This document shows, in pieces, positions 50,541 through 62,740 of a stretch of DNA of 64,000 bases; the stretch's first letter is position 1, and the number at the start of each line of letters is the position of its first letter. The position numbers and the translations under genes are program-made. This DNA is from Peptococcaceae bacterium 1109 (GTDB lineage Bacteria > Bacillota > Limnochordia > Darwinibacteriales > Darwinibacteriaceae), in NCBI GenBank assembly GCA_001028815.1, contig LDJB01000002.1:496001-560000 (forward strand). The letters run 5' to 3'. The notes beneath the pieces were generated by a model. That model did not search any database and was not told the origin of the DNA. It was given only the letters and a program-made list of their open reading frames with translations.

Positions 50541-51617
50541 TTATTTTAAGAATCTGCCTTTGATGATTTCAGCCTTCAGACGCTTCCCCCTGATGCCCAC
50601 ATAGACCGTGGTTCCAGGAGCCGCTAAATCCACAGGAACGTAACCCGTACCAATTGGCTTGTTTAATGAAGGGGAAAGGGTCCCGCTGGTAACGTGGCCC
50701 ACTTCTTCCCCCGCCTCATTTAAGATCGGATAACCCTGCCGGGGTATGCCCCGGTCGAGTAGGACAAAACCTATTAGGCGGCGGCTTACCCCCACTTGTT
50801 TTTGGGCAAGCAGCGCCGAACGCCCAATGAAATCACCTTTGTCGAACTTCACAAACCGGCCCAGGCCTGCCTCTAAAGGTGTGGTCGTCCCGTCAATATC
50901 ATTGCCGTAAAGGGGCATGCGCATCTCCAGGCGCAGAGTATCCCGGGCGCCAAGTCCGATGGGCGCGATGCCATAAGGTTCACCCGCGGCCATTAGGCTC
51001 TGCCACAGCTCCTCTGCTCCGGCGTTGGGTAGGTACAGCTCAAACCCGTCCTCGCCGGTATAACCTGTGCGGGAAACCCGAAGCCAATTTCCTTTATAGG
51101 TAGTATCAAGAAAAGTATAGCTGCCCATGTCACCCAGGGAGAGATTCAACACTTGCTCCACTACGGGGAGGGATTTTGGGCCTTGGACAGCGATGAGAGC
51201 TAGGTCATCTGTGCGGTTAGTCAAGACAGCGTCTGAGGGAAGGTGCTTTGAAATCCACGCGAAGTCCTTTTCTGCGTTGGCGGCGTTCACAACGAGGAAG
51301 AAGCCAGTGGCTGTGCGATAGACGAGAATATCATCGATGATGCCGCCGTCTTCTTTGGTGAGTATCGTGTACTGAATGTCCCCCTCACCTAACAGGGCGG
51401 GGTCGTTCGTGGTGAGCCGAGAGAGAGCGCCCAGGGCGCCTGGCCCCTCTAGTTCAAACTCACCCATGTGGCACAGGTCAAACAGCCCTACTGCCCGACG
51501 CACCGTGAGGTGTTCTTCAATGACGCTTGTGTACTGCACGGGCATTTCAAATCCGTGAAAGTCGACCATCTTTGCACCTAGCGCGCGGTGCACCTTGGTC
51601 AGGGGAGTCTGTTTCAA
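50541..51617 (-). CDS. gcvT: Glycine cleavage system aminomethyltransferase (T protein)
   Basis: A 358-residue T-protein: QTPLTKVHRALGAKMVDFHGFEMPVQY, HLTVRRAVGLFDLCHMGEFELEGP, NAANAEKDFAW, VSRTGYTGEDGFELYLPN and LGARDTLRLEMRMPLYGNDID. It transfers the methylene group to tetrahydrofolate. TTG at 51617 is the start, with GGAG seven bases before it, since the conserved N-terminus begins there; a long open extension upstream crosses the micro-gene and is rejected. First gene of the gcv operon. Confidence 0.95.
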   Translation of the reverse strand: MKQTPLTKVHRALGAKMVDFHGFEMPVQYTSVIEEHLTVRRAVGLFDLCHMGEFELEGPGALGALSRLTTNDPALLGEGDIQYTILTKEDGGIIDDILVYRTATGFFLVVNAANAEKDFAWISKHLPSDAVLTNRTDDLALIAVQGPKSLPVVEQVLNLSLGDMGSYTFLDTTYKGNWLRVSRTGYTGEDGFELYLPNAGAEELWQSLMAAGEPYGIAPIGLGARDTLRLEMRMPLYGNDIDGTTTPLEAGLGRFVKFDKGDFIGRSALLAQKQVGVSRRLIGFVLLDRGIPRQGYPILNEAGEEVGHVTSGTLSPSLNKPIGTGYVPVDLAAPGTTVYVGIRGKRLKAEIIKGRFLK

Positions 51618-51717
51618 CTTCCATCTCCGCCTTTCTCGTCCCTTAAGTTGGTAACTGTCCACCAGGTTGATACTTCTTCGGTTGGCTGAGATAATCCTTC
51701 TGTCACAACTTCGCCCG
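51618..51717 (-). promoter_or_regulatory. Possible degenerate glycine-riboswitch-like leader of gcvT
   Basis: The minus-strand leader contains AACCGAAGAAGTA (core 51673-51681), a short hairpin and then AAGGGACGAG (51635-51644). Glycine aptamers share CCGAAG and AGGAC with this spacing order, but the CAGGUAAA element is missing and no second aptamer is evident. The same bases hold a plus-strand promoter. Confidence 0.25.
51667..51695 (+). promoter_or_regulatory. Promoter of the 29-codon micro-gene
   Basis: TTGATA, 17-bp spacer, GATAAT on the plus strand, about 70 nt before the micro-gene start. It is divergent to gcvT. Confidence 0.65.
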
Positions 51718-51762
51718 TTCTCGATACTATATGAAGGAAGGTCCTCTGAGGGAGGGAGAACT

Positions 51763-51852
51763 ATGGGAGTACTAAAGGCAATCCTTGACCCCCTGCTCAA
51801 GGCCAGGGGCAAGACAATGATCCTTATTTGGCGGCCCCTACGGCGGAAATAG
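51763..51852 (+). CDS. Micro-protein (29 codons) with its own promoter and terminator
   Basis: An ATG ORF behind GGAGG (seven bases). The product begins MGVLKAILDPLLKAR, a potential amphipathic helix, and continues GKTMILIWRPLRRK, a short hydrophobic patch and basic tail. Promoter, ribosome site, ORF and terminator are all present within about 210 bp. The C-terminal pattern G[KR]xxIxxxxP with basic end recalls the micro-ORF at 35051. A membrane-associated peptide is plausible; I do not recognise it. Confidence 0.62.
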   Translation: MGVLKAILDPLLKARGKTMILIWRPLRRK

Positions 51853-51880
51853 ATAAACCCCAAACCATGGGGTTTATTCA
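51853..51880 (+). terminator. Terminator of the 29-codon micro-gene
   Basis: ATAAACCCC, seven-base loop, GGGGTTTAT, then TCA. It directly follows the stop codon. The reverse complement also ends the TPR gene side. Confidence 0.65.
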
Positions 51881-51882
51881 CA

Positions 51883-51916
51883 TTATCCACAGGCCCTGTT
51901 GATAACCTGTGGGTAT
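51883..51916. promoter_or_regulatory. DnaA box pair
   Basis: A perfect TTATCCACA at 51883-51891 and an opposed weaker copy TGTGGGTAT at 51908-51916 (7 of 9 matching TGTGGATAA), in the intergenic space between the micro-gene and the TPR gene. Confidence 0.5.
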
Positions 51917-52498: not shown

Positions 52499-53503
52499 TC
52501 ATCTCCCCTTTCCTAGAAGGGTACCAAAGATCAGCATTCCCATGAGGCCAACGATGGGATACCCCAGGCGCACTAAGGCGCTGAACCCAAAGGCCGATAA
52601 GGCTAGACCCGCCCCTAATACTAGCGCTGTCGCGGAGCCCGTCTCCAGGGTTGTCTGAAGCTTAACGCGTAAAGTTAAGGCGTAGCCGTGGGCTAGAGCA
52701 GTGCTGAACATAGCGAGATACAAAATCGCCGCAAAACTCCCGGTCACCAAGGGCCCATAGGCTCTTGCGATCACGAGGATGGGAATCTCCGACTGGCCAC
52801 CCCCGGGAGGGACAGCCCACAAACCCAGGCTTAGAACGAACAGCAAAATACCTACGGGGCCGTTGCCCAAGAGGGCTGCGGCCCAGAGTTCACCCCGGGT
52901 CTTGAGGCGGTCGTGGAACGATGCCCATACCGCCATAGAGAATGACAAGTTATATGAGGCGTAGAGGAGCGCTGCAGGTATCCCGAGGTGGCTGCCCCAG
53001 GTGGGAAGGGTTATTCCCTCCTTTACAATGAATCCAAGGGTTGGGATCACTAAGACCGTTGCCATTACGGGGGTTAGAATGCTGCTTAGGCGAAGGATCT
53101 GCCCTGGGCCCGCCCATATTGTTAGGCCCACCGCGACCGCAGTGGCCAAGGCTCCTCCGGGTAGCCCCACAAGACTCCGGGCAAGAGCGCCACAACCAGC
53201 GAGCATCACTCCAAGCCCCGTGAGGGCAAAAACGCTATAAACCGTATCGTATACCCTCCCTAGCCGCCCCCCTTCCCGATGGAAAAACTCGCTGTACGAG
53301 CCTACACCGAGCCTCTTACATTGCTCTAGCACCAGCCCGCTTCCCAACACGAGTACCGCGATGCTGAGGGGAATACCCACAAGCCCCCCCAGCCCGTAAC
53401 GAACGAAAAAGGCCTGGATCTCCTCCCCAGAGGCAAAGCCTGCCCCAATGAAGGCCGCAGTGTAAAACGAAGCTACACCAGAAATCTCCCTTATCCGGCC
53501 CAT
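52499..53503 (-). CDS. YkvI-family membrane transporter-like protein
   Basis: A 334-residue protein with about ten helices. The N-terminal ASFYTAAFIGAGFASGEEIQAFFVRYGLGGLVGI is the unwound-helix motif of YkvI-family members of the APC/NSS superfamily. Later helices carry YASYNLSFSMAVWASF. It probably transports an amino acid or similar solute; substrate unknown. RBS GGGAGGTGGGG. Stands alone between the TPR gene and yyaC, divergent from yyaC. Confidence 0.82.
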   Translation of the reverse strand: MGRIREISGVASFYTAAFIGAGFASGEEIQAFFVRYGLGGLVGIPLSIAVLVLGSGLVLEQCKRLGVGSYSEFFHREGGRLGRVYDTVYSVFALTGLGVMLAGCGALARSLVGLPGGALATAVAVGLTIWAGPGQILRLSSILTPVMATVLVIPTLGFIVKEGITLPTWGSHLGIPAALLYASYNLSFSMAVWASFHDRLKTRGELWAAALLGNGPVGILLFVLSLGLWAVPPGGGQSEIPILVIARAYGPLVTGSFAAILYLAMFSTALAHGYALTLRVKLQTTLETGSATALVLGAGLALSAFGFSALVRLGYPIVGLMGMLIFGTLLGKGR

Positions 53504-57608: not shown

Positions 57609-59483
57609 TTAGCCTTCACTCCGCTTCTGGGTTTCCAAGTAGATGACCAACACATTTATATCCGCGGGGCTAACCCCTGATATCCGAGCAGCTTGGCCCA
57701 GAGAGCGGGGCTTAACGAGGGTCAGCCTCTCCACAGCCTCCCTGGAGAGGCCCCGGAGCTTTGTGTAATCCAAATCCTGAGGCAAGAGCCGGGATTCCAA
57801 CTTCTCAAAGCGTTCAATAGCGGCCTGCTGCTTGCGCAGGTACCCTTCATACTTGACTAAGATCTCAACAGAGCTGCGCACATTCTGGGGAAGGTCTGGA
57901 AGATCGCAAAGGCGCCCCAGCTGGTCATAGGATATCTCTGGACGCCGCAGGAGCTCCGCCATGGTGATGCCGTGACGCAGTTCAGTGGTGCCAAGCTCCC
58001 GGAGGATTGCGTTAGTCTCTGCATCTCCACCAACAGGAGTGCGTTTGAGGCGCTCCACTTCCTGGGCGATCTGTTCCTGCTTTGCCTGGAATGCGGCATA
58101 GCGTTCCTCGCCGATCAAACCTACCTGGTATCCCAGGGGAGTAAGGCGGGCATCTGCATTATCCATGCGGAGGTAAAGCCTGTGTTCCGCACGAGAGGTC
58201 ATCATGCGGTATGGTTCAGTTGTGCCCTTGGTTACCAGATCGTCAATGAGGACGCCAATGTAGGCCTGAGAGCGTGGGATAGTGATGGGGCTTTCGCCGT
58301 CTAGAAGCCGCGCGGCATTAATGCCTGCCACGATCCCCTGGGCGGCTGCCTCTTCATACCCTGAGGTGCCGTTGATCTGGCCTGCACAGAAGAGGCCCCA
58401 TATCTCTTTCGTCATGAGGGAGCTGTCCAAGAAAAAGGGGTCGAGACAGTCGTATTCGATGGCATAAGCCCAACGCATGATCTCCACATTCTCCAGCCCC
58501 GGGATTGTCTGCAAGAGTTCCACTTGGACCTCCGCAGGCAGGGAGGTTGAGAGCCCACTTAAATAGCCTTCGTTTGTCTCCCAGCCTTCCGGCTCAATAA
58601 AGACCTGGTGGCCGGTGCGGTCGGGAAATTGAACTACCTTGCTCTCAATGGAAGGGCAGTACCGGGGGCCCGTGCCCGTAATGGCACCGCTGTAGAGAGC
58701 TGCTCGGTGCAAGTTATCCCGGATAATGGCGTGGGTGGCTTCGTTGGTGTAGGTCACCCAGCAGGGGACCTGTTCGATCTCTATCGAACCAGTCTCAAAC
58801 GAGAAGCCTTCCAAGGGGTTTTCCCCCTCAAGCTTAGCCAGCTTGCTGTAATCGAGAGACCGCAGATTGACCCTGGGGGGTGTTCCCGTCTTGAAGCGCA
58901 CAATCGGGAGGAGGTTCCTCAGACTCTGGGCAAGTTCGATGGCTGGGTGCTGGCCCTGGGGCGCCCCAGAATAGCGCACGTCTCCAATGTGAATCACCGA
59001 ATCGAGATAAGTCCCCGTGGCAAGGATCACCACTGGCGCGTAAAGGGTGGTACCATCGCGAAGTTTGACCCCCACGACCCGGCCTTGTTCCACTAAGAGC
59101 CTCGTTACTAGGCCCTCTTTCAGAAACAGATTAGGGGTGGTCTCTAGCACATACTTCATGCGCCGCTGATACAGCTTCCGATCCAACTGTACCCTCAAGG
59201 ACTGGACCGCAGGTCCTTTACGGGTATTAAGCATACGGCCCTGCATGAGCGCGGCATCGCAGATTCTCCCCATCTCACCGCCTAGAGCATCTACTTCACG
59301 AACCAATGCCGCTTTCCCCGAACCCCCAATGGAAGGGTTACAGGGAAGGAGGGCCACATTATCGAGGCTGAAAGTAAGGAGGGCGGTTTTCTTGCCTAGG
59401 CGCGCAGCTGCAAGGCCCGCTTCGCAGCCTGCGTGCCCTGCGCCAACCACAATAACATCATAGCGCCTATCTCTATGAGACAT
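57609..59483 (-). CDS. mnmG: tRNA uridine 5-carboxymethylaminomethyl modification enzyme MnmG, paralogue 2
   Basis: A full-length 624-residue MnmG: FAD-binding [21 protein letters not shown], the loop [24 protein letters not shown] with Cys48, [11 protein letters not shown] (second catalytic Cys), [55 protein letters not shown], and the C-terminal MnmE-binding helical domain [18 protein letters not shown]. With MnmE it places carboxymethylaminomethyl on U34 of tRNAs. It overlaps the upstream paralogue by 11 bp and abuts rsmG, so it sits at the usual mnmG position. Its own ribosome site is weak (GAAGAAG). Confidence 0.96.
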
Positions 59484-61344
59484 ACTTCTTCACGTCCTTG
59501 AGCACAACGGCCAAAACACTTACGTCCGCAGGTGAAACCCCAGAAATGCGGGCCGCCTGGCCCAAGTTGATGGGCCGGACAGCATTGAGGCGCTCCCGGG
59601 CTTCTGTGCGCAGGCCGTGGATTTTCAGGTAATCAATATCTTCGGGAATCTGAATGTCCTCCAGCTTGTGCAATTCTGCCACCTGGCGCTGCTGGCGCTC
59701 CACATACCCCGCGTACTTAACAGAGATCTCCACCTGTTCAACTACCTCAGGGGGCAAACTGGGACATTGGGCAAAGTGGGCCAAGTGAGCGAAGTCAAGT
59801 TCTGGACGCTGCAGGAGATCCGCCAAAGTGACGCTCTTCTTCAAATCCCCAGAGCCAAGCTCTTGGAGCTTATCCCGGACAGGGGTAGTGGGGGTGACCT
59901 TGGTGGAGTTCAGCCAGTCCAGTGCATCCCCAATGAGGCGCCGCTTTTCCTCAAATCGCTTGTACTGCTCATCATCGATAAGGCCGATGGCCCGGCCGAT
60001 GGGGCGCAGCCTCAAATCGGCATTGTCGATTCGAAGGAGAAGGCGGTACTCAGCTCGAGAGGTCATCATCCGATAAGGCTCGGTGGTGCCTTTAGTCACC
60101 AAATCATCGATGAGCACGCCGATATAGGCTTGGGAGCGCCGCAGGATGACAGGCTCCCGTCCCAGCACTTTGTGGGCTGCGTTAATGCCGGCCATGATTC
60201 CCTGGGCGGCTGCTTCTTCATACCCTGAAGTGCCGTTGATCTGCCCGGCTGTGAAGAGCCCAGATACCACCCGGGATTCCAGGGTGAGCTTCATCTGGGA
60301 AGGGAGGATGTAGTCATACTCCACCGCGTAGCCCGGCCGCATGATTTTCGCATCCTCCAGGCCGGGAATGGACCGGACGATTCTCTCCTGCACATCTTCA
60401 GGCATCGCGGTTGTTAAGCCTAGGCAGTACAGCTCCTTTGTGTACTTTCCTTCCGGTTCTAAGAAGATTTGGTGGTCCAGTTTATCTGGAAAACGCAGCA
60501 CTTTCCGGTCAATGGACGGACAAAACCTGGGGCCGGCCCCAACAACGCTCCCACTCTGAATAGGGGAACGGTGCAGGTTCTCCCGAATCACTTCGATGGT
60601 CGCGGGAGTCGTCCTTGTGTACCAGCAAGGCAGCTGGGGCCGATCATCTCTTGGCGAATCGAAGGAAAAGCGCAGAGGCACCGGGCTTCCCGGCTGTTCA
60701 GTGAGGCGCGCATAGTCCACCGTATCCGCATGCAGGCGGGGAGGAGTGGCGCTTTGAAAACGTGCTAACTCAATGCCGAGCCCGGCCAGGCTCTCCGACA
60801 GCTCCTTTACGGCAGGCTCTCCCTGGCGCCCGCCAGGATACCGCAGCTGTCCCACCACCAATACCCCTCGCATGAAAGTGCCAGTGGCCAAAATGACAGC
60901 TGGGGCCGTAAACTCGGTACCCGCTTGGGTTTTAACCCCTCGGACTGCGCCCTTTTCCACCAGAAGATCGGTGACAACCCCTTGCCGAACATCGAGATTA
61001 GGTTGGCTTTCTAAGGTCAGGGTCATGAGGCTGCGGTAGAGGACTTTATCAGCTTGTGCCCGGATGGCTCGGACCGCGGGGCCCCTACTTTCGTTAAGGA
61101 TCCTTATATTGATGAACGAATCATCGATGATCTTCCCCATGATTCCGCCAAGGGCATCGATTTCCCGGACCAAGTGGCTTTTCGCAGCAGGCCCGCCGAT
61201 CGCGGGGTTGCATGGCATTTGAGCGATATTATCTAACGTGGTGGTCAAGAGCAAGGTGCGGCAGCCAAGGCGCGCTGCGGCATAGGCTGCTTCACAGCCT
61301 GCATGTCCTGCTCCCACCACGATCACTTGATAGTCAGTGCGCAT
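59473..61344 (-). CDS. mnmG: MnmG, paralogue 1 (adjacent to mnmE)
   Basis: A second full-length MnmG (623 residues): [134 protein letters not shown]. Both catalytic Cys (45 and near 275) are kept. It has one more residue in the nucleotide loop (GGPAAKSHL) than E. coli, B. subtilis or paralogue 2. The copies differ widely outside the conserved blocks, so the duplication is old. ATG 61344 follows AGTAGGA at the mnmE stop. Confidence 0.94.
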
Positions 61345-61351
61345 AGCGATC

Positions 61352-62740
61352 CTACTTTCCAATACAGAATTGGGCAAAAATCCGGTCGATAACGTTCTCC
61401 CGCACCGTTTCCCCGGTTATTTCCCCAAGGTGTTCCAAGGCTCCCTGGAGCCCCACAGAGATAAGATCAAGTGGAAGGCCGCTTGTTAAAGTTTCTAAGG
61501 CTTGCTCCAGATCGCCCTTGGCTTGTTCGAGAGCGGCTTTATGCCTCGCCCGGGTAATAATGGCCTGGCTGGAGGTGCCTTCCCGCACTACTCCTTGCAT
61601 CACCAAGTCCAAGATGGCATCCACCACGGGGTCGAGTTCCCCTTCCAGCAGTGAAATCTCTACGATTTTCGCTCCGCCTAAATCAGCCTGGGGCAAATCG
61701 GCCAGATCCCAGACCCTGGGGAGATCAGACTTGTTGATCACAACTACCCGGTGTTTGTCCTTTGTCTGTGCAAGAATTTGGAAATCCTCTTCTGTTAAGG
61801 GAACGCTGCCATCTAGGACGTGGATGATCAAATCTGCCTCACTCCAAAGCTGAACTGCCCGCTCCACTCCTAAGCGCTCCACCACATCGGCGCTTTCCCT
61901 AATCCCCGCAGTATCAATGAGGCGGAGGGGGATGCCCTTGAGATTCAAAACCTCCTCAATGATGTCTCTGGTGGTTCCAGGGATATCTGTAACCAGAGCC
62001 CGCTGTTCATCCAAGAGGCGATTGAGTAAGCTGGATTTCCCTACATTGGGCTTCCCGGTGATCACCGCTTTTAAGCCCTCCCGCAGCACTTTTCCTTGAT
62101 CCGCGGTGGCAAGGAGGCGCTCGAGCTCGGCTAAGCCAGCCTGAATCACCTCGGCCATCTCGTCCATTTCCATCTCAGGAATATCATCCTCAGGATAGTC
62201 AATGATAGCTTCCACCCGCACAACTAGATCATAGAGATGCTCCCGGATGGCCCCAATCCGCCTGCTTAGGCTGCCTTCGAGCTGATCTACTGCTAGTTCC
62301 AGGCTTGCCTCGGTGCGAGAGCGCACCACATCGATGACCGCTTCCGCCTGAGACAGGTCGATGCGGCCGTTAAGGAAGGCTCGTTTGGTGAACTCCCCTG
62401 GCTCCGCAAGGCGCGCACCCAGGCGCAAAGCCATCTCCAAAATGCGCTGCACAACCACAACCCCGCCGTGGCACTGAAACTCAACCACGTCTTCACCTGT
62501 ATAGGAACGGGGAGCACGCATCACCAGCAAGACGGCTTCATCTACTGTGCGTTTTGTCTCAGGATCTACTACCCTTCCGTAGCGAGCACTGTATCCCGGC
62601 AAACTACTCGGGGGAAGCCCCTGCCGGGAGGAAAATATCTGATCCGCGATTTCCAAGGCCTTACTGCCGCTTAAGCGCACTATTCCTATTCCCGCTTCGC
62701 CAATGGCAGTGGCAATTGCGGCTATGGTCTGGTCGGTCAA
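61352..62740 (-). CDS. mnmE: tRNA modification GTPase MnmE (TrmE)
   Basis: A 462-residue GTPase: N-terminal tetrahydrofolate-binding domain ([54 protein letters not shown]), inserted G domain ([45 protein letters not shown]) and the C-terminal FCIGK with its catalytic Cys. It forms a complex with MnmG. The start is TTG 62740 (AGGTGA five bases upstream), or GTG 62749 three codons earlier. First gene of the operon, after the jag terminator. Confidence 0.97.

Follow-up and report, generated by a model that had tools for sequence, protein, structure and literature searches.

An unannotated 29-codon microprotein gene of Bacillota linked to sporulation and probably controlled by sigma-K

Few microproteins are known in Bacillus and Clostridioides, the main bases of sporulation genetics. 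A close known counterpart is SpoVM (PF08183), a 26-aa mother-cell protein of Bacillus subtilis that is tiny, basic, amphipathic and linked to sporulation, and whose expression is sigma-E dependent. CmpA and MciZ, two B. subtilis sporulation microproteins of 37 and 40 aa, are likewise made by the mother cell during sporulation under the control of sigma-E. The late-sporulation gene dpaA (spoVFA) belongs to the sigma-K regulon and encodes an enzyme of ordinary size.

The microprotein described here is encoded within the window, i.e., the whole stretch of 64,000 nucleotides that was analysed. It shares with SpoVM the tiny size, the basic and amphipathic character and the link to sporulation, but its helix and hydrophobic strip are arranged in a different order, its promoter is of the sigma-K type, and none of 52 family members matched PF08183 in a Pfam scan. 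It resembles CmpA and MciZ in being short and presumably made by the mother cell, but differs from both in length and sequence. Within one and the same genome set, its promoter is built like that of dpaA, whose product is far from a microprotein in size.

Reading frame and family

The micro-gene and its immediate surroundings comprise the following features:

50544 to 51632, minus strand: gcvT, divergent neighbour (PF01571, NF001567), start codon not settled
51751 to 51755, plus strand: ribosome-binding site GGAGG, read from the sequence, 7 bases 5' of the ATG at 51763
51763 to 51852, plus strand: microprotein gene, 29 codons from ATG to TAG (51850 to 51852), product MGVLKAILDPLLKARGKTMILIWRPLRRK, frame conserved in class and phylum
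51852 to 51878, plus strand: hairpin, probable weak terminator, -14.5 kcal/mol, z -4.6, adjoining the stop codon
51916 to 52452, minus strand: TPR-repeat protein gene, convergent neighbour (PF13431 and others)

The original prediction had placed a complete micro-gene of 29 codons, preceded by a properly spaced GGAGG site, in the gap between gcvT and the TPR gene. This position was confirmed, both neighbours lying on the minus strand, and the ribosome site is present with its 7-base spacing. The tblastn search that had been proposed as a check was carried out with the peptide and the frame proved strongly conserved, with matches in 46 of 61 relatives at a loose limit (E <= 10) that admits some chance matches. 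Peptide identity was 86% within the genus and about one half in other families of the class. Nearly all copies span 25-34 codons and open with a start codon that follows a purine-rich ribosome site. The nearly constant agreement of start, ribosome site and stop across class and phylum lies far beyond chance.

Substitution patterns also bore out the micro-gene. In the two nearest families pN/pS was 0.19 (the window's own family) and 0.14, in the micro-gene frame only, with pS values of 0.81 and 0.93, near saturation, against pN values of 0.15 and 0.13. Conservation was strongest at the second codon position, a pattern absent from the other two frames. Since synonymous sites are near saturation and the amino acids have hardly changed, in one frame only, the frame is under protein-coding selection. 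The 29-codon frame is a real, unannotated protein gene.

When a family profile (A3) built from 52 members was run on 398 genomes taken from across the phylum, 68 of them gave one copy each, true matches showing E <= 1.3e-8 and noise E >= 1e-3 with nothing in between. The family occurs in nearly all of the window's class, with the consensus M-x-x-L-L-x-x-[LIV]-[LIV]-[NDSGT]-P-[IL]-[LF]-[KR]-x-x-x-[KR]-T-[VMC]-[IL]-[LI]-[IV]-W-[KR]-[KR]. In families f9 and f13, both with SpoIVA and sigK, the micro-gene seemed absent from G040, G057 and G048, but inspection by eye revealed diverged copies in the usual place (MLRRLALIHLTRLIWRRRAIVWWVAPGR, MLRRLILMTIPRLLWRRRVIVWWVPRHR and MERLLRGLLGPVMRWRKGAFFLVVRMPRRRR). 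Searches of Pfam, NCBIfam and, by profile, PDB returned no matching family, tblastn against plasmids gave no match, and the family was not reported in the literature searched, an incomplete library. The microprotein family is widespread and unannotated, and a deeply conserved microprotein missed by gene callers and family libraries points to undescribed parts of the endospore programme in other Bacillota.

Sporulation genes and promoter

SpoIVA was found in 102 of 106 micro-gene carriers (43/45 and 59/61); the remaining four have sigK, which was present in all carriers tested. Within the window's order, four genomes (G023, G026, G028 and G030) lack SpoIVA, sigK and the micro-gene altogether. 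In G026 and G028 (loci L088 and L086) the gcvT-TPR-parB locus is intact and the micro-gene is gone; the contigs of G023 and G030 stop at gcvT, so that absence there rests on the whole-genome search only. The genomes devoid of the micro-gene are related, so the losses amount to one or two events and not four. In G035, which has SpoIVA, the contig also ends at gcvT, and in G036 gcvT was not found. SpoIVA was present in 20 of 25 sampled genomes without the micro-gene, and most sporulators of the phylum have no recognisable copy. As many sporulators outside the class lack the family, it would be a lineage-specific part of the sporulation programme. There is good support both for the micro-gene and for its link to sporulation, and the gene is very probably used in sporulation.

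The sigK gene of the window's genome is itself split by about 1.6 kb (L251:1878-4190; G000:C1:351377-353689). Within the insert are genes for a serine-recombinase-like protein (L251:2965-3849) and a phosphatase-like protein, and the arrangement resembles a skin element in miniature. Interruptions of 1.6-4 kb also occur in the sigK of G001, G005, G009 and G013; the gene is incomplete in G007 and G010, and whole in the other families tested.

Two promoter-like sites lie upstream of the frame:

51667 to 51695, plus strand: TTGATA-17-GATAAT, 10/12 match, not conserved, probably not the promoter
51705 to 51731, plus strand: conserved sigma-K-type promoter, AC at 51705-51706, 16 bases, GATACTATA at 51723-51731, conserved in homologues

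The first of these had been named as the promoter in the original prediction, which proposed no function for the peptide; the site does exist, but it is not kept in relatives, the conserved promoter being the second one. By chance alone, the surrounding 1.5 kb would be expected to hold about 0.7 promoter-like matches. Relatives retain an AC element (GTCAC or similar) and, after a spacer of 16 or 17 bases, a ATANNNTA element, mostly 30-55 bases 5' of the start.

Late mother-cell promoters of the sigma-K type have AC and CATANNNTA as their consensus letters. The pattern AC-N16/17-CATANNNTA was matched at 7 or more of 8 positions in 56 of 89 homologues, compared with 6.6 +/- 2.2 in shuffled sequences and 6 on the reverse strand, and perfectly in 15 of the 89, compared with 0.4 expected in shuffles; the 89 sequences are related and these counts overstate their independence. 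The motif was present in each of four groups taken separately, and the window's copy scored 7/8. As a positive control, the dpaA promoters of the same group reached at least 7 on the same pattern in 20 of 22 genomes. In the Bacillus sigma-K regulon the -35 element has 5 bases, the gap 14-16 and the -10 element 10 bases (PMC517825). A sigma-K model outscored those of sigma-A, E, G, F and H by z-score in every group, with z values of 7-12, compared with -0.8 to 3.1 for sigma-E, at or near the level of shuffles.

The -10 element is CATAACATA or CATACCATA in family f3, CATATCCTA or similar in f10, mostly GATANNNTA in the window's family and CATATAATA/G in the other lineages. Since in the window's family it starts with G, T or A and not with C, another sigma factor could recognise it. 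TATAAT or GATAAT occurs in many of these elements, the sigma-A model also scored above shuffles (z 2-7), and glycine-cleavage genes often adjoin the micro-gene, all of which would suit a vegetative or housekeeping microprotein that is transcribed from a sigma-A promoter, is merely co-inherited with sporulation and might act on a cell-membrane enzyme or transporter. However, the -35 elements lack TTG, and the base 5' of AC is C in 71% of copies, whereas the G of the sigma-A TTGACA stands there in 8%; certain -10 elements, for example CATAACATA and CATATCCTA, suit sigma-K instead of sigma-A; and the gcv locus was retained where SpoIVA, sigK and the micro-gene were lost together. We therefore regard the housekeeping explanation as improbable, and control of the micro-gene by sigma-K, as read from its promoter, as likely.

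Peptide anatomy and proposed role

The family is strongly basic (mean net charge +7.6), and its helical moment is moderately above that of shuffles (mean percentile 0.73). Judging by the residue pattern, the peptide would have an amphipathic helix lying along a surface, with Pro capping its second turn, besides a hydrophobic strip and a strongly basic tail. An AlphaFold model of a 30-aa member, too weak for a fold search, agrees weakly with this helical anatomy, placing helices at residues 2-14 and 18-23 with low confidence (pLDDT 63). With this pLDDT and a moderate helical moment, membrane binding rests on the anatomy and is put forward tentatively.

We consider it likely that the product is a late mother-cell sporulation microprotein of the sigma-K phase, presumed to bind membranes and somewhat similar to SpoVM, yet not SpoVM itself. 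The biochemical role that we infer runs as follows. The mother cell would most likely make the microprotein late in endospore formation from the sigma-K promoter at 51705-51731. The N-terminal half (LLK-x-hh-[N/D/S]-P-hh-K) would lie as an amphipathic helix on a membrane, the TVILIW strip would insert or pack, and the basic tail would grip lipid head groups or a partner. The microprotein might then serve as a marker or anchor at the outer forespore membrane or the maturing coat, much like SpoVM at an earlier stage; the full SpoVM-like mechanism, drawn by analogy, is possible but doubtful. A SpoVM profile gave 3 hits above cut-off in 80 genomes, none of them in a micro-gene carrier, and is too insensitive for a replacement to be deduced. 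The family could, on a similarly speculative footing, represent a core sporulation protein, 26-34 residues long and so far undescribed, that is kept by selection in distant Bacillota, acts at the coat or the outer forespore membrane during the sigma-K phase and may assume a late SpoVM-like role where SpoVM is unrecognisable. The analysis yields a short testable peptide and a sigma-K promoter motif for mostly uncultured lineages.

A short, basic, amphipathic peptide with a late promoter might also be membrane-active, aiding lysis of the mother cell or hitting competitors at the end of sporulation. Strong purifying selection and the single copy per genome speak against this, no export or immunity genes were found adjoining the micro-gene in the loci inspected, and such a function is quite unlikely. 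Size and the hydrophobic and basic composition would fit a type I toxin of a toxin-antitoxin pair even less convincingly, as the gene is single-copy, vertically inherited and fixed in place across the class, and a search for an antisense RNA family found none; we give this explanation very little weight. That the locus is a chance open frame or a regulatory RNA, as its short length and the hairpin behind the frame might suggest, has a negligible probability given codon-level selection in a single frame, phylum-wide homologues and the lack of any Rfam match, and frame conservation rules out the chance frame.

Surroundings of the micro-gene

The hairpin at 51852-51878 had been called a terminator. 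It is stable, and similar hairpins follow the micro-gene in relatives, including L040 and L044, but it lacks a proper U-run and was not among the hits of the terminator scan. An Rfam search found no glycine riboswitch or other RNA near the gathering score at the locus.

Within the class, the micro-gene is divergent from what we take to be gcvT-gcvH-gcvPA-gcvPB and lies near yyaC, parB and soj, several of these names having been read from the sequence. The window runs on to jag and yidC, which by known gene order presumably puts the locus left of the replication origin. Elsewhere the micro-gene is divergent from gcvH and a presumed lipoate-ligase-like gene, or from a galT-like or glycogen-synthase-like gene. 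It appears to be monocistronic in most loci inspected, so that no fixed partner gene explains it.

Directly 3' of the micro-gene, at 51874-51891, lie two DnaA-box-like sites (TTATTCACA and TTATCCACA) with an inverted TGTTGATAA beyond. Many relatives within the same family have similar sites behind the micro-gene, and the gene-less loci L086 and L088 retain them. Farther on, tandem mnmG/gidA-like genes (57609-61377, minus strand) adjoin a trmE-like gene; they span 57609-59483 (624 aa) and 59473-61377 (634 aa) and overlap slightly. A gene at 52499-53503 (minus strand) encodes a membrane-protein-like product of 334 aa with no match in Pfam or NCBIfam, and its position beside the TPR gene is conserved in most relatives.
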